From contig VGPU01000015.1 of the NCBI GenBank assembly GCA_016882525.1, positions 1 through 48,798 of the forward strand: DNA of 48,798 nt. The letters run 5' to 3'. Positions 25,170-37,413 of the stretch are shown piece after piece. The notes below the pieces were generated by a model. The model saw only the letters and a list, made by a program, of their open reading frames with translations. It did not search any database and had not been told where the DNA came from. The translations under genes were made by a program, and so were the position numbers. Every line of letters begins with the position of its first letter. The first letter of the stretch is position 1. This DNA comes from Cyanobacteria bacterium M_surface_10_m2_119 (lineage in GTDB: Bacteria; Cyanobacteriota; Cyanobacteriia; PCC-6307; Cyanobiaceae).

Positions 25170-27278
25170 GTGACCCATTCCAATGTCTTTGGGGTGATTG
25201 AGTTCGGAGCTGAGCTTTATGAGTTGATGGAAAGTTGTAGTGATCTGATTCAGATCACGAGTGCTGACCGTTGCATCGTTTATGCAAATCCCGCCTGGTG
25301 CCAAGCTCTGGGTACGTCCTTCGCGGCTATCGAGGGTGGTGATCAGCTGGAGCTCATGCATCCGGCTTCACGGGAACGCTGGCTGCAAAGTGTCGAACGG
25401 GTCTCCTCAACGGGTCAGTCGGAAACAGTGTGCTGCCATCTTCTTGCAGCGGAGGCTTCGCCATTGGTGCTGGAGGGCACTCTGGCGTGTTGGAAGCCCA
25501 CGGAGCACGACCATTTTGTGAGGTTGATGCTCCATCCAAAGCGGATGTTCAGGGATCCTGCCGAATCCGGTGACGCTCCCTCCCAGGGCGATCTCGGGCC
25601 TGGCCGCGAGGAGCCCTCGGCCGAGATCCTGCGCAGCCGCCAATTGCTGCAGGAGGCCCAGCGCATTGCCCAGGTCGGCAGTTGGAGTCTTGACCTTCGC
25701 AAGGCTGAGCTGCTCTGGTCGCCTGAGATCTACCGGATTTTCGAGCTGGACCCATCCAGATTTGAGCCCAGTTATGAAACATTCCTGGCGTGCGTTCATC
25801 CCGAAGATCGCCAGAAGGTTGACCGGGCTTACGCCGACTCGCTCATCGATCAGAAACCCTATGAGGTGGTGCACCGCCTGCTGATGCCGGATGGTCGGAT
25901 CAAGGTGATCCGAGAGCGCTGTGAGACGAGCTTCAGTGAGGAGGGGGAGCCACTGCTATCGATCGGTACTGCCTCCGACATCACGCTGCAGACCGAGGCT
26001 CTTGAGCGTCTCGAGCAAGGAGAGCGAAAGCTGCGAAGTTTGGTGGAGCTTGCTCCTCTGGGCATCGTGCTGAGCAATCTCGAAGGTGAATTGCAGGAGT
26101 GCAACTCTGCATTTGCTCGCATGCTGGGTTGTGCTTCTTCGGGGGTGATTGTCGCGAGCTCGAGTTTCAATGCGTTGGCTGCTAAGGCCTTGAGCGATGT
26201 TCTGAGGGGCAACCGCGAGGAGCTATTGAATAATGGTTGCTGCGGTCCAGTCAAGACTTCCATTCGAAGGCCTGATCACGTGCTGATTGATCTGAAAATT
26301 AATTCACTTCTTTTCGAAGTGGGTGATCAAGGCCCTCTGGTTTGGTCGATCGTTGAGGATGTCAGTGAGAGTTTGCGTATTCAGGAGCAGCTCGAACAGG
26401 CCGCCAGCGTGTTCAGCCATTCCCATGAGGGAATCATGATTACGGATGCTTCTGGAAAAATCCTTGACGTGAACCAGGCTTTGTGCCGGATCACTGGCTA
26501 TCGGCGTGAGCAGCTGCTTGGCTCCAACCCCAGGCGGTTGAAGTCTGGAATTCATGATGATGACTTCTACCGTTCCATGTGGCAGGAGTTGCAGGACCAG
26601 GGCACATGGTCTGGCGAGGTGATCAATCGGGGGCGAGATGGCAACTTGCTGCCGGTGCGGGAGACGATCAGCGCGGTGAGGTCTCCCGATGGCCAGACCC
26701 GCCGCTATGTAGCCCTGTTGACTGATATTCGGGAGCTGAAAGAGCAACAGCAGCAGTTGGAGAATCTCGCATTGAGCGATCCGCTCACTGGACTGCCCAA
26801 CCGTGTTCTTCTGCGCGACAGGATGGAGCAGGCCATCCGATTCGTTCAGCGCAATTCAGGCTGCATGGTTGTTGCATTGATTGACCTTGATGGTTTCAAG
26901 CAGGTGAACGACCGCCATGGGCATGCCGCTGGGGATCACCTGTTGCAGGTCCTGACTGAGCGCCTTCTTGTGGTGTTGCGCAGGGGTGAGACCCTTGCCC
27001 GCCTCGGGGGGGATGAATTCGTGCTGCTCGTCCCCAATCTCGACGATCCACCTCAGGTGCTTCCCCTGGTTGAGCGGTTGCTTGCGGCTGTGAACCTGCC
27101 GGTGGAATGGGATGACCGCGCGCTGAGCGTGGGTGGCAGTGTCGGCCTCACGGCGCTGGTTGGCGGATCTGAATCTGCGGACCATCAATCTCTCCTGCTC
27201 CAGGCCGACCAGGCGATGTACAAGGCGAAGCGCACCGGGGGTAACCGCGTGGTCTGGTATCCCGACTTCCCCTCCTGA
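25170..27278 (+). CDS. Multi-PAS diguanylate cyclase
   Basis: A 702-residue soluble signalling protein with about four PAS units and a C-terminal GGDEF domain. PAS-like segments begin near residues 19 (SCSDLIQITSADRCIVYANP), 168 (VGSWSLDLRKAELLWS, PAS_3 type), 292 (LAPLGIVLSNLEGELQECNS) and 410 (HEGIMITDASGKILDVNQA). The cyclase domain has DPLTGLPNRVLLRDRM, DLDGFKQVNDRHGHAAGD and RLGGDEFVLL near 610-620, so c-di-GMP synthesis is expected. No membrane segment is visible. The start is GTG 25170. Codon use and GC are clearly lower than in neighbours through the first two thirds, which suggests transfer or a different history. Confidence 0.88.
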   Translation: MTHSNVFGVIEFGAELYELMESCSDLIQITSADRCIVYANPAWCQALGTSFAAIEGGDQLELMHPASRERWLQSVERVSSTGQSETVCCHLLAAEASPLVLEGTLACWKPTEHDHFVRLMLHPKRMFRDPAESGDAPSQGDLGPGREEPSAEILRSRQLLQEAQRIAQVGSWSLDLRKAELLWSPEIYRIFELDPSRFEPSYETFLACVHPEDRQKVDRAYADSLIDQKPYEVVHRLLMPDGRIKVIRERCETSFSEEGEPLLSIGTASDITLQTEALERLEQGERKLRSLVELAPLGIVLSNLEGELQECNSAFARMLGCASSGVIVASSSFNALAAKALSDVLRGNREELLNNGCCGPVKTSIRRPDHVLIDLKINSLLFEVGDQGPLVWSIVEDVSESLRIQEQLEQAASVFSHSHEGIMITDASGKILDVNQALCRITGYRREQLLGSNPRRLKSGIHDDDFYRSMWQELQDQGTWSGEVINRGRDGNLLPVRETISAVRSPDGQTRRYVALLTDIRELKEQQQQLENLALSDPLTGLPNRVLLRDRMEQAIRFVQRNSGCMVVALIDLDGFKQVNDRHGHAAGDHLLQVLTERLLVVLRRGETLARLGGDEFVLLVPNLDDPPQVLPLVERLLAAVNLPVEWDDRALSVGGSVGLTALVGGSESADHQSLLLQADQAMYKAKRTGGNRVVWYPDFPS

Positions 27279-27299: not shown

Positions 27300-27332
27300 C
27301 CGGAAGCCTTCAGCCCCGGAAGCCTTCAGCCA
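27300..27332. repeat. 16-base tandem duplication at a convergent gene junction
   Basis: CCGGAAGCCTTCAGCC at 27300-27315 recurs from 27316 with one difference at its last base; a further partial copy AAGGAAGCC follows. The stop codon of the minus-strand RTX-like gene (27326-27328) lies in the second copy. Each unit holds the near-palindrome GAAGCCTTC. Confidence 0.8.
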
Positions 27333-28250
27333 AGGAAGCCCCCGATGCCCTGGTCGTTCACCACAAAGGTGCCCAGCTCAAGCCGCTCCCTGCCGCCCTG
27401 CAGCCCGGCCAGCGCATTCATCCCCGAGACCAGCAGAAACGTGTCTGCCGTGGAGATCTTCAGCACCGCTGGATCAGATCCCGGCCCCGGCGCCGTGTTC
27501 TCCACCGTGTAGCGGCCCGGCGGCAGCACCAGGGTGTCGGTGCCTTTGCCGCCCCTCACCGTTCCGATCAGGTCGTCGTTCAAGGACTCCGGCGGTGCCG
27601 TGGCAAATCCCCTGAGCAGATCATCCCCGGGGCCCAGGGCGAGTCGGCCATAGGCCCAGAGGTCCAGTCCGCCTGCAAGGGCATCCACGGCGTCATCCCC
27701 TTTGCCCGTGGTCATGCCGCCTTCGGTGAGCCTCAGGGTTCCCTGGGAGGACAGACGGTCGTTCCCGTTGCCCAGGTCGATGGTGGCGATCCCCGTAAAC
27801 ACGCCTGCCGAACCGATGCGGATCGCGTCCTTGCCGGGGCCGGTGGAGAGGAACCCCCCCGATCAGGGCGAGATGCTCCGCTTCCACCGTGTCCTTGCCC
27901 GAGCCGGTGAGAACGCCGCTGTCTTCGCCGATGAGCAGCTCGCCCTGGCTCACGACAAGGGCATCACTCCCCTTGCCGGTCTCCAGGGAGCCGTTCCAGT
28001 CGTCGACGGCCAGCAGGGTGATCTGCTGCTCCGCCTCGATCCGATCCCGCCCAGGCCCCACGCTGGTGGCGCCGAACAGCTCGATCGTGCGTCGGCCGGT
28101 GATGGTGTCCGCCCCGCCCAGCAGGCGGATCACCCCCCGGCGGCCGTTGATCACCCGCTGCCGGCGAGTGCTGCCCCGCACCAGATCGTCGCCGGGGGTA
28201 CCGAGCAGTTCCTCCTGATTCGGGGCCTTGAGGGTGAAGGTGCGGGCCAT
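27326..28250 (-). pseudogene. RTX-like repeat protein gene with a frameshift at a G7 run
   Basis: On the minus strand an ATG at 28250 begins MARTFTLKAPNQEELLGTPGDD. Acidic Gly/Asp units recur through the product: LGGADTITG, GPGRDRIEA, GKGSDALVV, GSGKDTVEA, GPGKDAIRI, GNGNDRLSS, GKGDDAVDA and GPGDDLLRG, a loose RTX/hemolysin-type calcium-binding pattern. At 27854-27860 a G7 run (coding strand) shifts the frame. Removing one G joins LIGG to FLSTGPGKDAIRIGSAG and continues to the stop at 27326, giving about 307 residues. I therefore treat it as one gene with a one-base insertion, real or a sequencing artefact. There is no signal peptide; RTX proteins are often secreted by type I systems, which are not seen here. 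Confidence 0.72.
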
Positions 28251-28330
28251 GCCGTTCGCCTCGCCGATCGTGGATGTCTGCAGGCCGTGGTGCTGCTGAG
28301 CCAGGGCGTGCAGCGCCACGGCCGCTCCCT

Positions 28331-30412
28331 TCAGTATGGGTCGACATTCGGGGGGGGGCCGCTGTTCCGGAGGTGCACCTGACGCAGATCGACGATGCAG
28401 GTGTCCGGAGCGCCCGTGTGCTCCCAGGGGGCCGGGCAGTCGGCTGGTGCAGCCGGGAGCCCGCACTCCGGCTGCAGGGGCATGAACCGGGGAGAGCCCG
28501 GCTCCAGAACCCAGTGTGAGTTCGTGCCCGCGTGCTCGATCGCCAGTACCAACGAGCCCTCCGGGGGAATGCCCGGGTGGAGGCAGGGATAGAGCCGCTG
28601 CTCCCTCCAGCGCACGGCCATGGGCAGCTCGCGATCCGCAGGCAGGGGCAGCAGCCGTCCCTGCAGCCGCAACCGGCAGGCCTGGCGGAAGCTGGCATTG
28701 GCGGTCACCTCGAAGCGGCGCAGGGAGGCATCCACAAAGCGGCTGGTGTGGCCGCCCTCCCGGGGGGTGTCGCAGATCAGGGGCCAGGGTTCGAGCGCAT
28801 GGCGCAGCTCCAGGGCCGCGCCGCTGGCGGGATCGTGCCACTGCAGCAGCAGGGGGAAGCGCCAGGCCCAGATCTGCCGATAGATCTCCGGCTCCAGGGG
28901 CAGACCAGCGGCCTCCAGGTCGGCCAGCACCTGGCTCAGATCGGCCCAGAGCTGGCTCGGCAGCAGCATCCGCTCATGCAGGGCCGGGCCCCAGTCATGG
29001 AGTCGCTCAGGCCGGTGTTCTGGATCCAGCAGCAGCGCTGCCAGCGATGTCCACAGCAGGGCGATGGCCGCGGTCCAGTCGGCGCGGGGCAGGCTCTCGA
29101 TCGCCCGGAACTCGATCAGCCCCTGACAGCCGCCCGGCACGCCGGGATTCCAGAACTTGTCGAAACTCACCTCGCTGCGGTGGTTGTTGCCGGAGCGATC
29201 GGCGTGCAGGTGGCGCAGGGTCTCGCCGATCAGCTCGCGCTGATCGCCGGGGGGCGCCGCCTTCAGCACCCGGTAGGCCAGCTCCAGATCCGCGAGCGTT
29301 CCCAGGGCTTCATCCGGCCGGGGGGCCTGGGAGGCGGCCCCCACGCCATCGCCGCTGAACAGGTAGGCCAGGCAGGGGTGGTGCTGCCAGTAGCGCAGGA
29401 TCCCCACCAGCCAGGCCGGCCTGGGGAAGAAGGGATTCTGATCGAGGTCGGGGCCTCCCCAGAGCAGGTGGTTGCCGCCACCGGTTCCCCGCTGGATTCC
29501 AGCCGGATCCTGCCGCCAGCTGCGCAGCCCCACCGCGGCGCTCGCATCCTCCAGCAGTGTCAGCCAATCCCGGTAGGCGACCCAGCTGCGGCAGACCGGC
29601 AGGTTGATTTCCAGCACCCCCGGATCGGCGGTCAGGCCCAGCACCTGCCAGCCTGTCTCCGCATCGAGGGGGAGCACGCCGCTGAAGAGGGGCCGGCCGA
29701 GGGGCGTGTCCCGCGCTGGATCGGTGGCGCCGGCCGCGATCGCCTGCAGCAGCTGCTCGATCGCCAGCCGCTCCAGCGGTGGCAGGAACAGCTCCCAGCC
29801 CTCGCCATCGAGCTCCAGGGTGAGCAGCTGGCAGGTTTCCCCCGCCGGATAGTGCTCCAGGGGCAGCCGCAGCCCGGCAGGGCCCTGGGCAGGTCCCAGC
29901 TCGCGCAGGGCAGGCGCCAGGGGCCAGGGCAGGCTGCGCCAGTGGCCCTGCTCCCAGGTGAGGGGCACGGCCCACACTGCCCGTGCCGGGTCGCGGGGAT
30001 CCCGCAGCCGCAGGGTGTGCAGCGCCACCCCCAGGCGCTCTCCCAGCTGCTGCAACCAGGCTTCAGCCTGGCCTGCCCCCAGGGGCCGGGCTCCGGCCTG
30101 CTCCGGCCAGGGGGCGATGGGACGGCCGTCATGGCCGGTGATCAGGCGTAAGGCCCAGCGGGGGTTCACCTCACCGGCGTAGCGCTTGCCACTGCAGTAG
30201 AGCAGGGTGCTCCCGGGCCAGGTGCGCGCCTGGATGGCTGCCGCCAGCTCCCTGGCGAGACCCAGCTTGGTGGGGCCATCGGCCGCCACACTCCACTCCG
30301 CTCCCTCCGGTTCCAGCGGCACCACCGTCGGCTCGCCCCCCAGGGTGAGCGCGATGCCGGCCCGCTTCAGGCGCTGCTCGGCCCGTTGAGCGGCGTGGTC
30401 CATCCAGCCCAT
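28331..30412 (-). CDS. DUF2126-type putative amidoligase protein without its transglutaminase half
   Basis: A 693-residue protein similar to the C-terminal DUF2126 region usually found fused behind a bacterial transglutaminase-like domain. Conserved-looking blocks include LTLGGEPTVVPLEPEGAEW near the start, GGGNHLLWGG, HLHADRSGNNHRSEVSFDKF, GLIEFRAIESLP and the C-terminal SLVLAIEHAGTNSHWVLEPG. DUF2126 has been proposed to be an amidoligase of the glutamine-synthetase-like fold; this is prediction, not assay. ATG 30412 (MGWMDHAAQ) is chosen because the frame runs open to 31615 but that part is antisense to an RCK channel gene. It is divergent from that gene. Confidence 0.75.
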   Translation of the reverse strand: MGWMDHAAQRAEQRLKRAGIALTLGGEPTVVPLEPEGAEWSVAADGPTKLGLARELAAAIQARTWPGSTLLYCSGKRYAGEVNPRWALRLITGHDGRPIAPWPEQAGARPLGAGQAEAWLQQLGERLGVALHTLRLRDPRDPARAVWAVPLTWEQGHWRSLPWPLAPALRELGPAQGPAGLRLPLEHYPAGETCQLLTLELDGEGWELFLPPLERLAIEQLLQAIAAGATDPARDTPLGRPLFSGVLPLDAETGWQVLGLTADPGVLEINLPVCRSWVAYRDWLTLLEDASAAVGLRSWRQDPAGIQRGTGGGNHLLWGGPDLDQNPFFPRPAWLVGILRYWQHHPCLAYLFSGDGVGAASQAPRPDEALGTLADLELAYRVLKAAPPGDQRELIGETLRHLHADRSGNNHRSEVSFDKFWNPGVPGGCQGLIEFRAIESLPRADWTAAIALLWTSLAALLLDPEHRPERLHDWGPALHERMLLPSQLWADLSQVLADLEAAGLPLEPEIYRQIWAWRFPLLLQWHDPASGAALELRHALEPWPLICDTPREGGHTSRFVDASLRRFEVTANASFRQACRLRLQGRLLPLPADRELPMAVRWREQRLYPCLHPGIPPEGSLVLAIEHAGTNSHWVLEPGSPRFMPLQPECGLPAAPADCPAPWEHTGAPDTCIVDLRQVHLRNSGPPPNVDPY

Positions 30413-32342: not shown

Positions 32343-32927
32343 ATGTACGGCCTGGTGAACCAAGCCATTCGCGACATGATCGTCGTGAACCACGGTGAAG
32401 AGACCTGGACCCGGGTGCGGGAACGCGCCGACGTGGAAGTGGAGCAGTTCGAGGGCATGGAGCCCTATCCCGACGACCTCACCCACCGCCTCGTGATGGC
32501 GGCCAGCGTGGAGCTCAACGCCGATCTCCATGCCCAGCTGCGGGCCTTCGGCGAGTTCTGGGTGACCTACACCGCGGCGGAGGGTTACGGCCCCTTGATG
32601 GACATGGCCGGCTCGACTCTGCCGGAGTTCCTGCACAACCTTGACGACCTTCACGCCCGGGTGGGCGTGAACTTTCCCCAGCTCGTGCCCCCGAGTTTTG
32701 ATGCCGAAGACCTGGACGAAGGCAGCATGCACCTCCACTACCACTTCAGTCGGGAGGGGTTGGCACCGATGGTGATCGGTCTGGTGGAGGGGCTTGGTGG
32801 CCGCTTCGAGACGCCGGTGGAGGTGGAACAGCTGGCCTCCCGCAATGAGGGTGCGGACCACGACGTCTTTGCCGTGCGCTATGAGGTTGAGAGGGGGCGG
32901 CCCGACAGCGAGCCTTCCGAGCCATGA
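32343..32927 (+). CDS. hnox: H-NOX heme-based gas sensor
   Basis: A 194-residue stand-alone heme nitric oxide/oxygen-binding protein. The N-terminus MYGLVNQAIRDMIVVNHGEETW is diagnostic, and VTYTAAEGYGPLMDMAG and LPEFLHNLDDLHARVGVNFPQL match the family, with His104 as expected proximal heme ligand. PPSF and LHYHFSREGLAPMVIGLVEGLGGRF follow. The heme-propionate motif YxSxR reads Y133-H-F-S-R137: Tyr and Arg are kept, but Phe replaces the usual Ser, with Ser one place later. Likely ligand is NO (inference). The ATG 32343 is certain from MYGLVN. It overlaps the next gene by 4 bases, so sensor and cyclase are coupled. Confidence 0.95.
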   Translation: MYGLVNQAIRDMIVVNHGEETWTRVRERADVEVEQFEGMEPYPDDLTHRLVMAASVELNADLHAQLRAFGEFWVTYTAAEGYGPLMDMAGSTLPEFLHNLDDLHARVGVNFPQLVPPSFDAEDLDEGSMHLHYHFSREGLAPMVIGLVEGLGGRFETPVEVEQLASRNEGADHDVFAVRYEVERGRPDSEPSEP

Positions 32928-33910
32928 GCCTGGCGCCGTCGCCCGCCCGTTTTCCGGAGCTGTTTCCGTTTCACCTGGTCGTTGACGGGGATCTGGTGAT
33001 CCGCCAGGTCGGCCCCGCCCTCGCCAGGCTCCTGGGCCCTGGCGCCTGCGCTGCACCCCTGCTGGAGCAGGTGCACTGGCGCCGTCCCCATCTGCCCCAG
33101 GCCAACCTGGCTGCTCTGGAGCGCCTCAGCCACAAACTGGTGGTGCTGGAGCTGCGCAGCCTGCCCCTGCAGCTCAAGGGCCAGTTGCTGGTGGAGCCAC
33201 CGCTGGCCTTCTTCCTCGGCACCCCCGTGGTGCACAACCTCGAGCAGCTGAGCGCGCTCGGCATCCGGTTCAGTGACATCGCCCGCCACGACGCCCTCGC
33301 CGACGCCCTGGTGATGCTCCAGACGAAGGACATGACCATCGCCGATCTGGTTCAGCGCCGCACCCAGGATCTGGAGCAGCTCGCCACCCAGGACGCCCTC
33401 ACCGGCGTCGGCAACCGCCTGCTGTTCAACCGGGAGCTCAGCGAGGAACTGGTGGAGCACCGCCAGCAGGACAGGCCCCTGGCTCTGCTGCTGGTGGATG
33501 TGGATCACTTCAAGCGGTTCAACGACAGCCACGGACACCTGGCTGGCGATGCCTGCCTGCGCGCCGTGGCTGAGCGGCTCGTGGACCTGGTGGGGCGCGG
33601 AAGCGACCGGGTCTACCGCTATGGCGGTGAGGAATTCGCCGTGCTGCTGCCCGGCACCGATCTGGCCGGCGGGCGTCAGGTGGCCGCGCGGATTGTGGAG
33701 GGGTTTGCGGCCTCGTCCCTGCGCTTCGCCCTGGCGGCCGGCGCTGCGCCCCAGAGCCATGCCATCACCCTCAGCACCGGTCTGGCCTGGGCTCACCCGG
33801 GGGAGGAAAGGGCCGAATCCCTCGATGAGATGGGCCTGATTGCCCGGGCCGATGAGGCGCTCTACCAGGCCAAGCACGCTGGCCGCAGCCGCTTCGTGAG
33901 CCTGGTCTGA
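32924..33910 (+). CDS. HNOBA-domain diguanylate cyclase, partner of H-NOX
   Basis: A 328-residue protein. Residues about 10-135 resemble the H-NOX-associated (HNOBA) domain of soluble guanylate cyclase: FPFHLVVDGDLVIRQVG, then LPLQLKGQLLVEPPLAFFLGTPVV, HNLEQLSALGIRFSDIARHD. A coiled-coil-like linker (MTIADLVQRRTQDLEQLATQ) leads to a GGDEF domain with DALTGVGNRLLFNREL, DVDHFKRFNDSHGHLAGD and RYGGEEFAVLL near 234, an intact active site. In animal guanylate cyclase the same domain order ends in a nucleotide cyclase; here the output makes c-di-GMP. ATG 32924 overlaps the H-NOX stop. It ends 23 bases from a convergent HD-GYP gene. Confidence 0.88.
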   Translation: MSLAPSPARFPELFPFHLVVDGDLVIRQVGPALARLLGPGACAAPLLEQVHWRRPHLPQANLAALERLSHKLVVLELRSLPLQLKGQLLVEPPLAFFLGTPVVHNLEQLSALGIRFSDIARHDALADALVMLQTKDMTIADLVQRRTQDLEQLATQDALTGVGNRLLFNRELSEELVEHRQQDRPLALLLVDVDHFKRFNDSHGHLAGDACLRAVAERLVDLVGRGSDRVYRYGGEEFAVLLPGTDLAGGRQVAARIVEGFAASSLRFALAAGAAPQSHAITLSTGLAWAHPGEERAESLDEMGLIARADEALYQAKHAGRSRFVSLV

Positions 33911-33937
33911 GACCGGCGGCGACCCCGTCGTTCTCAG
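33907..33937. terminator. Hairpin joining the stop codons of the diguanylate cyclase and HD-GYP genes
   Basis: Outer arms CTGAGA (33907-33912) and TCTCAG (33932-33937) contain the two convergent TGA stops; an inner CGAC/GTCG pair (33920-33923, 33927-33930) closes a CCC loop. It may act as a bidirectional terminator, though no T-run is present. Confidence 0.35.
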
Positions 33938-35082
33938 CGATCCTGGAAGCGGTCGCAAATGGCCATCACCTCCCCGCGATGGCGTTTCACGGCGGCCACG
34001 CAGTCGGCATCGAACTTGCCGGTGGCCACCAGCCGCTCCAGTTCGGCCACCGCATCCTCGAAGCTCCAGGGCTCCTTGTAGGGCCGGTGACTCGTGAGGG
34101 CATCGAGCACATCGGCGACGGCGATGATCCTCGCCTCCAGGGGGATGGCCTCCCCCTTCAGACCCAGGGGATAGCCGGAGCCATCGAGGCACTCGTGGTG
34201 GCCGGCCACCACATTGCGCATCACCGCGGAGTCCGGCAGCTCCTCCAGGCCGAACTCACCGATCAGTTTTTCCAGCACCTCCACGCCCTTGCCCACGTGG
34301 GTTTCCATCAATTGGCGTTCCTCCGGGTCGAGGCGGCCGGGCTTGAGCAGCACGCTGTCGGGGATGCCGATCTTGCCGATGTCATGCAGGGGGGCAAAAA
34401 GATAGAGGTGCTCGATGAACTCGTCACTGAGGCCATGGCTCTCCTGCAGGTCGCGGGCGATCAGCCGGGCGTAGTGGGCCATGCGCTCGAGGTGGCCGCC
34501 GGTCTCGAAGTCGCGCAGATTGGCGAATTCCCGGGCCACCTGGGCTGAGGTGGTGATCGAGCGCACCAGGTTGAGTTCGTTGCTGATCGTCATGTTGATC
34601 AGCGTGGAGAACAGGGAGAGGTTGCGCTGCACCGCTGCGGTGAAGGCCGCTGGCCGGCGGGAGTCGTAGAAGAGGAAGCCGATGAACGCCCCCTTGTCGT
34701 AGAGCGGCACCGTGAGCGAGGAGCGGTAGCCCTCCTTCAGCAGCCAGATCGAGTGCAGGCTGTTGCCCTGGACGGCGGAGGGGATGTCGTCGAGCACCCG
34801 GGTGCTGCCGCTGCTGGCCAGCCGGCTCAGGGAGTCGCTCTTGGCCAGCCGGAACTCATAGGCCTTGATCGCCTCGCCGGAGCGGGTGCTGTCCACGAAG
34901 ATCTTTAGCAGATCGTCCTGCGGGTCGTAGAGCACGCAGGCGATCCGATCGACATCCGGCACCAGCTCCAGCAGCTGCTCATGGAGCTGGCGCAAGCGGG
35001 TGCCCAGCGCATCACCGACCCGGGTGCCGACCACGGCCGCGAGGGATGCCTGCGGTGGTCCGGATGAGCCAGGGGAAGTCAC
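33934..35082 (-). CDS. GAF-HD-GYP c-di-GMP phosphodiesterase
   Basis: A 382-residue protein. Residues 25-170 form a GAF-like sensor (IACVLYDPQDDLLKIFV, SSLTVPLYDKGAFIGFLFYDSRR). Residues 190-370 are HD-GYP: ETGGHLERMAHYARLIARDL, HDIGKIGIPD with His233-Asp234, HHECLDGSGYPLGLKGEAIP with His295-His296-Glu297 and GYP at 303-305, and RIIAVADVLDALTSHRPYK. All metal-binding and GYP residues are in place, so c-di-GMP hydrolysis to pGpG or GMP is expected. The start is GTG 35082. It converges with the HNOBA-cyclase gene and follows the GGDEF-EAL gene on the minus strand. Confidence 0.9.
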   Translation of the reverse strand: MTSPGSSGPPQASLAAVVGTRVGDALGTRLRQLHEQLLELVPDVDRIACVLYDPQDDLLKIFVDSTRSGEAIKAYEFRLAKSDSLSRLASSGSTRVLDDIPSAVQGNSLHSIWLLKEGYRSSLTVPLYDKGAFIGFLFYDSRRPAAFTAAVQRNLSLFSTLINMTISNELNLVRSITTSAQVAREFANLRDFETGGHLERMAHYARLIARDLQESHGLSDEFIEHLYLFAPLHDIGKIGIPDSVLLKPGRLDPEERQLMETHVGKGVEVLEKLIGEFGLEELPDSAVMRNVVAGHHECLDGSGYPLGLKGEAIPLEARIIAVADVLDALTSHRPYKEPWSFEDAVAELERLVATGKFDADCVAAVKRHRGEVMAICDRFQDR

Positions 35083-35198: not shown

Positions 35199-37292
35199 TC
35201 AGCCCGGCATTGCCAACGAGGCCCAGAGCGGCCCATGGAGCGGGGAGGGCCGGCCGAACAGGTAGCCCTGGCCGGTGACGCAGCCCAGATCCAGCAACGC
35301 CTGCCGTTGGGCCACGGTTTCAATGCCCTCGGCCACCACCCGCAGGCCCAGCTCCTGGAACACCCGCACAAAGCCCCGCACCAGGGTGGCGCAGCGGGGG
35401 TCCTGATCCATCTGGCGGATGTACGACTGGTCGATCTTCACCTGATCGATCGGCAGCTGACTCAGCCAGGCCAGGCTGGAATAGCCCGTGCCGAAGTCGT
35501 CGAGGGCGATGCTCACCCCCGCCGCCCGCAGGGCGGTGAGGTTGTGATGGGCACGGGCGTGGGCCTGCAGCAGCACGGTCTCGGTGATTTCCACCGTGAG
35601 GCCGGCCAGGTCCACGCCCGTGCGTGCCTGTTCGGCCAGCAGTTCCTCCGCCAGATGACCCCGCTCCAGGTGCTGGGGACTGACGTTGATCGCCAGGTGC
35701 CAGGGCTGCCCCTGCCGCTGCCAGCCCGCGAGCACGTCGAGGGCCTCCGCCAGCACCCAGCGCTCCATTGGCACGATCAGTCCGGTGCGCTCCGCCACCG
35801 GGATGAAGGCGTCGGGCTGCACCAGCTGGCCATCGCCGTCCTGCAGTCGCACCAGGGCTTCCGCCCCCACCACGGCGCCGCTCTCCAGGTTCACCATCGG
35901 CTGGTAATGCAGGAGGAAGCGGCTGTGGCGCAGGGCCTGCTCAAGCTGCTGGCGCATGCTCACGCTCTGCTGCACCTGCTGGTCCATGGCCACCGTGTAG
36001 ACGGCCACGCCGTTGCGCCCGGCGGCCTTCACCTGATACATGGTGAGGTCGGCCCGTCGCAGCAGCTCCTCGGCGTTCACGCCTCCCCGGCCGCCTCCTC
36101 GGCCGCCTCCAAGGGCCACGCCCATGCTCATCGACAGGGTCAGTTCCTCATCGCCGTAGTGCCAGGGCTCGGCCAGGCTGGCCCGCAGCCGTTCTGCCAG
36201 CGTGAGGGCGTCCTCGTCGGCGTGGAGCTGCTCCACCAGCACCACGAATTCGTCGCCGCCGAGGCGTGCCAGGGTGTCCTGGCTGCGCAGCACGGTCTGC
36301 AGCCGGTTGGTGAGCTCCAGGAGCAGGGCATCGCCCGCAGCATGGCCGTAGCGGTCGTTCACCTCCTTGAAGCGATCGAGGTCGCAGAAGATCAGGGCCA
36401 GATCCTGGGTTTCGTGGCTGAGCGCCCGCTCCAGGCGATCAATCAGGCCACGGCGGTTGGGCAGGCCCGTGAGTGGGTCGCTGAGCACCTGTTGTGCCAG
36501 GGACTGCTCGCCCGCGCGGCGCTCGGAGACGTCGCGCTGCACCGAGACCCAGTGGGTGAACCAGCCCGCGCCGTCGGCCAGGGGGGCCACCTTCAACTCG
36601 TTCCAGTAGGGCTGTCCCTCGCGGGTGTAGTTCAGCACTTCCATGCTGGGGCGTCCCCACCGGCGCAGCTCCCGGCCGAAGCGGCGGGTCACCTCCGGGT
36701 CGGTCTGGGGGCCCTGGAACAGCCGTGGTGTGCGCCCCAGCAGTTCGTCCAGCCGATAGCCGCTCTGCCGCAGCAGGGTCTGGTTCGCGTACACGATCAG
36801 GGGGCCGGGCAGATCCAGGGGTTCCGCCAGGGTCACCAGCAGGGCGTCCTCCACCGTGTTCAGGAGTGTGGTGAGCAACTCCACCAGGGGCCGGTCTCCC
36901 TCGCTGATCGCGTTCTGTCCCCGGACGGCCACCCCCAGACCGGTGTCGGTGAGAAAGAGACGAAGTGACAGCGTCTCCTCCCCGGTGGTCAGGGCGGCCG
37001 GAGGGGGCAGATGGAGATCCAGCGGCCCGTGCTCCAGGCTCGGATGGAGACCCTCCAGCTGGCCATGGAGGTCGGGCCAGAGGTCGCTCAGGGATGCGCC
37101 TCTCCAGCCGGCCAGCCGAGGCTCCAGGGTGCGATCGACCCATTCCACCAGCCCGTCGCGGCTTGCCAGCAGCAAGCCATCGCCCGGCAGCAGCAGGAAT
37201 CCGGGCAGGGCGGCGTTCCAGGGGGTGGCCGCTGCGGTGGAGCCGGAAGGGGCGATGGTTCGACAGGATCGGTGCGGAGATTCTGATGCCAC
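35199..37292 (-). CDS. PAS-GGDEF-EAL bifunctional c-di-GMP enzyme
   Basis: A 697-residue protein from GTG 37292. An N-terminal uncharacterised region is followed by a PAS unit with LIVYANQTLLRQSGYRLDEL, GRTPRLFQG and MEVLNYTREGQPYWNEL. GRTPRLFQG sits where LOV domains have the flavin-binding Cys, which is absent, so it is PAS rather than photoactive LOV. GGDEF follows (DPLTGLPNRRGLIDRL, DLDRFKEVNDRYGHAAGD, LGGDEFVVLV) with a Gly/Arg insert [10 protein letters not shown]. The EAL domain has GAEALVRL, NVSPQHL, VEITETV, LDDFGTGYSSLAWL, KIDQSYI and AEGIET, so both catalytic sites look intact. A TTG at 37388 would extend it, overlapping the hli promoter; GTG 37292 is my choice. Confidence 0.85.
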   Translation of the reverse strand: MASESPHRSCRTIAPSGSTAAATPWNAALPGFLLLPGDGLLLASRDGLVEWVDRTLEPRLAGWRGASLSDLWPDLHGQLEGLHPSLEHGPLDLHLPPPAALTTGEETLSLRLFLTDTGLGVAVRGQNAISEGDRPLVELLTTLLNTVEDALLVTLAEPLDLPGPLIVYANQTLLRQSGYRLDELLGRTPRLFQGPQTDPEVTRRFGRELRRWGRPSMEVLNYTREGQPYWNELKVAPLADGAGWFTHWVSVQRDVSERRAGEQSLAQQVLSDPLTGLPNRRGLIDRLERALSHETQDLALIFCDLDRFKEVNDRYGHAAGDALLLELTNRLQTVLRSQDTLARLGGDEFVVLVEQLHADEDALTLAERLRASLAEPWHYGDEELTLSMSMGVALGGGRGGGRGGVNAEELLRRADLTMYQVKAAGRNGVAVYTVAMDQQVQQSVSMRQQLEQALRHSRFLLHYQPMVNLESGAVVGAEALVRLQDGDGQLVQPDAFIPVAERTGLIVPMERWVLAEALDVLAGWQRQGQPWHLAINVSPQHLERGHLAEELLAEQARTGVDLAGLTVEITETVLLQAHARAHHNLTALRAAGVSIALDDFGTGYSSLAWLSQLPIDQVKIDQSYIRQMDQDPRCATLVRGFVRVFQELGLRVVAEGIETVAQRQALLDLGCVTGQGYLFGRPSPLHGPLWASLAMPG

Positions 37293-37381
37293 CGCTCCTC
37301 TCGCTCCCGCAGCTCCAGTCGCCTGGGTTGGCGCTGGGATGGGCGGGCGGGGAACCGAACCGCCCTCCCTACCCCCAGGAG

Positions 37382-37413
37382 GCTTCAAAAGTCTTTACAC
37401 TCGCTTCAAGTTT
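37382..37413 (+). promoter_or_regulatory. Promoter region of hli with a direct repeat
   Basis: GCTTCAA occurs at 37382-37388 is read from GGCTTCAAAA, and again at 37403-37409, 21 bases apart, flanking TCTTTACACT. TACACT (37396-37401) could be a -10 element, leaving a leader of about 20 bases. TTTACACT resembles one half of the RpaB-binding HLR1 motif known at high-light genes; the second half matches poorly. Confidence 0.35.

Follow-up and report, generated by a model that had tools for sequence, protein, structure and literature searches.

An overlapping H-NOX and HNOBA-GGDEF gene pair in Cyanobiaceae as a candidate split gas sensor on the plan of soluble guanylate cyclase

Introduction

An H-NOX gene that overlaps the gene of an HNOBA-GGDEF protein raises the question of whether the two products act as one gas receptor on the plan of animal soluble guanylate cyclase (sGC), with c-di-GMP as the output, and of how unusual such a layout is. 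The pair lies in a 48,798-nucleotide stretch of DNA from Cyanobacteria bacterium M_surface_10_m2_119, which was analysed as a whole and is called the window here. Animal sGC and the window's pair have a common order of parts (H-NOX, HNOBA/PAS, helical linker, nucleotide cyclase); however, in sGC the H-NOX domain is in the same chain and the cyclase is of class III, whereas in the window H-NOX is a separate protein and a GGDEF domain stands instead of the cyclase. Iyer et al. (BMC Genomics, 2003) reportedly defined HNOB and HNOBA, and are said to have described the split arrangement together with the rule that HNOBA lies beside HNOB. Our main reading, to which we assign a probability of roughly 0.68, is that the pair is a two-protein gas sensor on the sGC plan, in which H-NOX acts in trans on HNOBA and drives the GGDEF domain.

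Results and Discussion

Domain Content of the Pair

The features of the pair are as follows:

32343-32927, + strand: H-NOX (haem NO-binding) protein, 194 aa, with the start MYGLVN (PF07700, E 5.7e-45; phmmer against Nostoc Alr2278 structures, E 1.1e-64)
32924-33910, + strand: HNOBA-GGDEF protein, 328 aa (PF07701, E 2.1e-18; PF00990, E 9.3e-40)
32936-33280, + strand: HNOBA (PAS-like) core, approx. residues 5-119 (alignment with 6jt0_B and 2p04_A; pLDDT approx. 78-95 at residues 11-120)
33281-33382, + strand: linker, approx. residues 120-153, mostly helical in a low-confidence prediction (model helices 124-133 and 139-181)
33383-33892, + strand: GGDEF (diguanylate cyclase, DGC) domain, containing GGEEF and the I-site motif RxxD (PF00990, residues 154-323)

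The initial annotation, made from the letters and their open reading frames, had called an H-NOX protein and an HNOBA-GGDEF protein, split relative to sGC, and had named the lack of an HNOBA match as the result that would speak against it. Such a match was obtained: PF07701 is found in two stretches of the second protein (67 bits against a cut-off of 23.4, best at residues 81-154), PF07700 (HNOB) covers residues 2-163 of the first protein over positions 1-163 of 163 of the model (153.6 bits against a cut-off of 25.5), and PF00990 completes the assignment. The peptides quoted in the annotation, the MYGLVN start, His104 and the overlap of four bases are all present in the sequence. H-NOX also matches sGC beta-1 in phmmer. 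The DGC motifs are intact, in agreement with a c-di-GMP type of output, with GGEEF from residue 234, the metal/substrate signature D-x-D-x-FK-x-x-ND-x-x-GH-x-x-GD read as DVDHFKRFNDSHGHLAGD, and RxxD five residues before GGEEF. A class III guanylate cyclase domain, as in sGC, was not matched in the Pfam scan of the pair.

H-NOX and HNOBA are encoded in separate reading frames and not in one chain as in sGC; the start codon of the HNOBA-GGDEF gene, at 32924, is within the H-NOX gene and gives a four-base overlap with its stop, so that the HNOBA gene adjoins an HNOB gene, as is expected of its family, and an H-NOX gene adjoins a DGC gene, as in H-NOX-regulated DGC pairs. The identical overlap is present in all six GGDEF-type pairs of the window's family. 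Against five relatives, purifying selection is seen on both H-NOX (dN 0.12-0.20, dS 0.81-1.15) and HNOBA-GGDEF (dN 0.21-0.36, dS 0.76-1.01). When residues 1-153 alone were compared with the PDB, the matches were to sGC beta-1 (6jt0_B, E 2.3e-11), 2p04 (E 3.8e-9) and sGC alpha-1 chains. Because of this match to sGC beta-1, and because dN is well below dS in both genes, the pair as annotated is far above chance.

The single-chain AlphaFold2 model of HNOBA-GGDEF (31 rows) has a mean pLDDT of 79.0 and a pTM of 0.51, with the linker residues 124-159 mostly below 50; by position, the linker corresponds to the sGC coiled coil. In a Foldseek search with this model, sGC chains take the first 16 places (E 6e-14 to 1e-11), with a query TM of only 0.31-0.36 and a high rmsd, which is expected if the domain folds are kept and their arrangement is not. 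The VIA-align listing (50 rows) was filled by GGDEF domains; sGC is absent among the matches listed, which according to the tool is not counter-evidence.

Distribution of H-NOX/HNOBA Pairs

Contigs of GTDB were scanned with two peptide patterns taken from a cyanobacterial H-NOX alignment, which biases the scan to cyanobacteria and makes it uninformative on proteobacterial H-NOX; it yielded 147 stretches with 137 relatives, of which the best 80 were kept. In all 80 of these best loci, H-NOX is directly followed by an HNOBA gene in the same orientation. Its output is a histidine kinase in 78, GGDEF-EAL in one (L215) and GGDEF alone in one (L144, Synechococcus sp. GreenBA-s), while two of the 78 kinase loci have an extra HNOBA-GGDEF-EAL gene upstream. 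Since a home-made HNOBA profile also matches some unrelated GGDEF frames (ORFs in L104, L116 and L119, three in all), its matches were accepted only if supported by Pfam or by a PF[HY] anchor at the N-terminus; the anchor was passed by all 80 downstream rows except L221, which is plainly HNOBA by sequence.

Regarding the window's family, HNOB was found in 22 of 400 genomes and an N-terminal HNOBA domain in 25, among them all 22 with HNOB. This gives 22 genomes with both, three with HNOBA without HNOB and 375 with neither (Fisher p 2.6e-33, uncorrected for kinship). Four further genomes (G498, G511, G535 and G712) were dropped from the HNOBA side, as their weak matches covered only the profile end (approx. 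150-216), and in a survey of the phylum, PF07701 matches occurred in 51 of 386 genomes, many of which likewise cover only positions of approx. 150-216 and were not counted as HNOBA. Six of the 22 H-NOX-bearing family genomes have HNOBA-GGDEF (the window's, G391, G270, G516, G546 and G584); the remaining 16 have an HNOBA-histidine kinase, five by Pfam and eleven by scripted comparison. A plasmid collection was also tried as a source of homologues (tblastn with HNOBA-GGDEF as the query) and was uninformative: all 4281 records were below 60% identity, and the ten rows inspected start at query residue 54 or later and are generic GGDEF by label.

The annotation's view that an HNOBA partner is unusual is not supported: 80/80 best loci, in a scan biased to cyanobacteria, and 22/22 H-NOX-bearing family genomes carry HNOBA. 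The split H-NOX/HNOBA pair is the cyanobacterial norm; the rare part is HNOBA with a plain GGDEF output.

In trees of 40 rows, the six GGDEF-type pairs form one clade with 100/100 support for both H-NOX, where the bootstrap had not settled (correlation 0.946), and HNOBA. The GGDEF clade of the HNOBA tree was the same with too long a trim (740 columns prior to filtering) and with one of approx. 152 residues. Both output types occur within the window's genus, with G391 and the window having GGDEF and G395 and G386 a kinase, and another genus, g8, likewise has both. Upstream of the window's pair lie a K+ channel and a divergent ORF, and G391 has flanks that match these, unlike G395 and G386. Due to this flank pattern and the presence of both types in one genus, the GGDEF type seems to be a separate locus, sparsely kept or transferred, rather than the result of an output swap at one site.

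Three more genes near the window's pair are likewise of c-di-GMP type:

25170-27278, + strand: PAS-GGDEF gene, within 11 kb of the pair
33934-35082, - strand: GAF-HD_5 (HD-GYP-like) gene, convergent, within 11 kb of the pair, with its end 24 bases away from the stop of HNOBA-GGDEF
35199-37388, - strand: PAS-GGDEF-EAL gene, within 11 kb of the pair

A counterpart of the HD_5 gene was not found in the stretches compared, which came from relatives of the GGDEF type (five) and of the kinase type (two). Elsewhere in the window, at 27326-28841 on the - strand, overlapping frames with Gly/Asp-rich, repeat-like stretches may belong to one repeat protein that is interrupted by a frameshift.

Residues of the sGC Relay

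According to the available part of PMC8196705, the His105-bearing helix of H-NOX in sGC is touched by beta R258 of the PAS domain, at D106 and, once the receptor is activated, at D102; K307, together with R305, reaches D106 when sGC is active. R54 and K85 of the window's HNOBA align to sGC beta-1 R258 and K307. Among 110 HNOBA rows with an adjacent H-NOX (two collections mixed, duplicates retained), R54 is Arg in 108 (Gln in the other two) and K85 is Lys in 107 (two Arg, one Glu); L221, which has no anchor motif, was left out of these rows, and its residue at the R54 place is Gln. Three genomes have HNOBA and no HNOB (G683, G578 and G519; rows L120, L122 and L123); R54 and K85 are both lost in 3/3 of them, while P15, F16, H17, G30, P55, G86 and L109 are kept in 3/3. 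These orphan rows are only three and possibly of one lineage, two of them come from ORFs of just 187 and 197 aa, and they also lose the conserved columns 97, 132 and 133. HNOBA genes away from H-NOX in L131 and L139 keep both residues, and their genomes (G340 and G042) have H-NOX elsewhere; in L142 (G417), both are lost though the genome has H-NOX with other adjacent HNOBA partners. Two other contact residues differ, with sGC D106 aligned to Ala105 and R305 to Gln83, where the pairs D102/D101 and D106/A105 were derived from the offset of His105 to His104.

What is new here is that two H-NOX-contact residues of sGC, R258 and K307, are kept in nearly all paired HNOBA rows and lost in the genomes without HNOB, which are few and perhaps related. 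As a pattern of aligned residues, it lends modest independent support to a docking of H-NOX on HNOBA between chains. In addition, the hydrophobic residues of the sGC dimer face, F213, F217, L320 and L322, align with F10, F14, F96 and L98.

The Haem Motif of the Window's H-NOX

The proposed proximal haem ligand, His104, is His in 112 of 114 aligned H-NOX rows, and W73 (114/114) and M143 (111/114) are near-invariant; the latter two presumably match the distal-pocket residues W74 and M144 of the Nostoc protein. The sGC haem motif is named as Y135, S137 and R139 in the accessible text of PMC3212528. The window has YHFSR in place of Y-x-S-x-R, with Tyr133 and Arg137 retained and Phe at position 135, where Ser is found in 111 of 114 rows and the other two exceptions are decayed genes. 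Codon 135 is TTC (32745-32747); in L105, the nearest relative, the codon is TCC and the next two codons are those of the window. Phe135 may be a genuine variant that alters the affinity for haem, a first sign of decay, or a base error, and the window's H-NOX is best regarded as a homologue by profile whose haem function should not be assumed, given YxFxR.

Altered H-NOX genes were also observed elsewhere in the family. In L117, L118 and L119 (G502, G444 and G563), H-NOX is short or broken and the HNOBA-kinase gene is long and open, with Glu at the K85 place in L117. The haem His is Asp in L111 (G175), whose HNOBA partner also has Glu at the K85 place. L108 (G584) has an open H-NOX frame without the usual first residues MYGLVNQAIRD, and its GGDEF partner is without the Asp of the RxxD I-site.

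Weighing of the Alternatives

It could be that haem binding is lost or altered in the window's H-NOX, so that in this strain the pair is in decay, or responds to redox or haem status instead, while its relatives are NO sensors. The change of a nearly invariant Ser by one C-to-T step from the codon of the nearest relative fits with this, as does the fact that decay of H-NOX with HNOBA kept is found in the family, where H-NOX is broken in three genomes, has lost its His in G175 and its first residues in G584. Against it, the H-NOX frame is complete with dN well below dS, the Tyr, Arg and His of the haem site are retained, and a single-base sequencing or assembly error at codon 135 may account for the Phe; we regard lost or altered haem binding as unlikely. 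We consider it about equally unlikely that HNOBA is a dimerisation or docking module only, or binds a ligand of its own, with H-NOX reaching the cyclase by another surface. A model for such coupling is offered by the H-NOX/DGC pairs of Legionella and Shewanella, which function according to PMC8846402, and the manner in which PAS domains signal in sGC is called unclear in the available part of PMC8196705; yet HNOBA follows H-NOX regardless of the output domain in the best 80 GTDB loci, and paired HNOBA retains the residues by which sGC contacts H-NOX. That the two proteins are mere neighbours without physical coupling is very improbable in light of the 80/80 best loci, the 22/22 genomes and the overlap identical in 6/6.

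Returning to the gas sensor on the sGC plan, H-NOX would bind NO through haem on His104 and would dock in trans on the PAS-like HNOBA domain of the second protein, which would dimerise as sGC does. As there is one HNOBA gene, the dimer is probably a homodimer, unlike that of sGC. Ligand binding would move the H-NOX helix bearing His104, and this movement, relayed first by HNOBA and then by the helical linker, would change the pairing of the GGDEF domains and with it the rate of c-di-GMP synthesis. Phe135 in the haem motif, the differing contact residues Ala105 and Gln83, the loss of R54 and K85 in L142 and the low confidence of the linker model count against this reading. NO is a more likely ligand than O2, judging from the closeness to Nostoc Alr2278, which we take to be an NO/CO binder, and NO may in this way tune c-di-GMP, for which the window's genome has a pathway with 28 GGDEF and four PilZ matches. 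In most characterised H-NOX/DGC pairs, as summarised in the available part of PMC8846402, NO lowers DGC activity, and inhibition by NO is therefore our default guess for this pair. More tentatively, and with somewhat less than even odds, such pairs could be naturally split, homodimeric receptors on the sGC plan, with cross-chain docking by the R258/K307 contacts through which the signal passes within animal sGC, and with GGDEF in place of the cyclase.

Relation to Known Systems

Among the nearest known systems are the cyanobacterial pairs of H-NOX and HNOBA-histidine kinase, in which, like in the window, a separate H-NOX gene is followed by a gene that begins with HNOBA; their output is a histidine kinase, whereas that of the window is a lone GGDEF. 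The PAS domain of one such kinase is that of PDB 2p04/2p08, which we take to be from Nostoc and which the window's protein matches in sequence, as given above for 2p04. HNOBA joined to c-di-GMP domains, as here, is also found in the cyanobacterial HNOBA-(GAF/PAS)-GGDEF-EAL proteins L141, L142 and L215, which are longer than the window's protein, with extra sensor domains and EAL; L141 precedes its H-NOX gene, and L142 lies at a distance from any H-NOX. Characterised H-NOX/DGC pairs are described for three bacteria in the part of PMC8846402 available (Legionella Hnox1/Lpg1057, Shewanella woodyi SwH-NOX/SwDGC and Dinoroseobacter H-NOX/Dgc1), and have, as here, a free-standing H-NOX with a c-di-GMP enzyme; a possible difference is that the window's enzyme begins with HNOBA. 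The same 2022 census, in the text seen, states that HNOB/HNOBA may associate only with GGDEF-containing proteins in c-di-GMP signalling. The suggestion of a new or rare layout is thus only partly borne out: a plain GGDEF output is rare (6/22 family genomes), but the split pair is the norm in cyanobacteria, and the link of HNOBA with GGDEF was already made in that census. In the literature searched, which took in few subscription papers, no experimental study of an HNOBA-GGDEF protein was found. The parts are known; the pairing of H-NOX with HNOBA-GGDEF is rare.

Conclusions

Cyanobacteria combine one sGC-like sensor module with at least three outputs, namely kinase, GGDEF-EAL and GGDEF, and the pair presented here is a compact two-gene system for signalling from H-NOX to its partner via HNOBA, with an easily assayed output. 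If the more tentative reading of cross-chain docking by the R258/K307 contacts is true, the pair would be handy for a structure of a bacterial H-NOX/partner complex, which was wanted in 2021 according to the accessible part of PMC8196705, and the sGC relay would be an old, exchangeable module, able to act between separate proteins and with kinase, GGDEF-EAL or GGDEF outputs.
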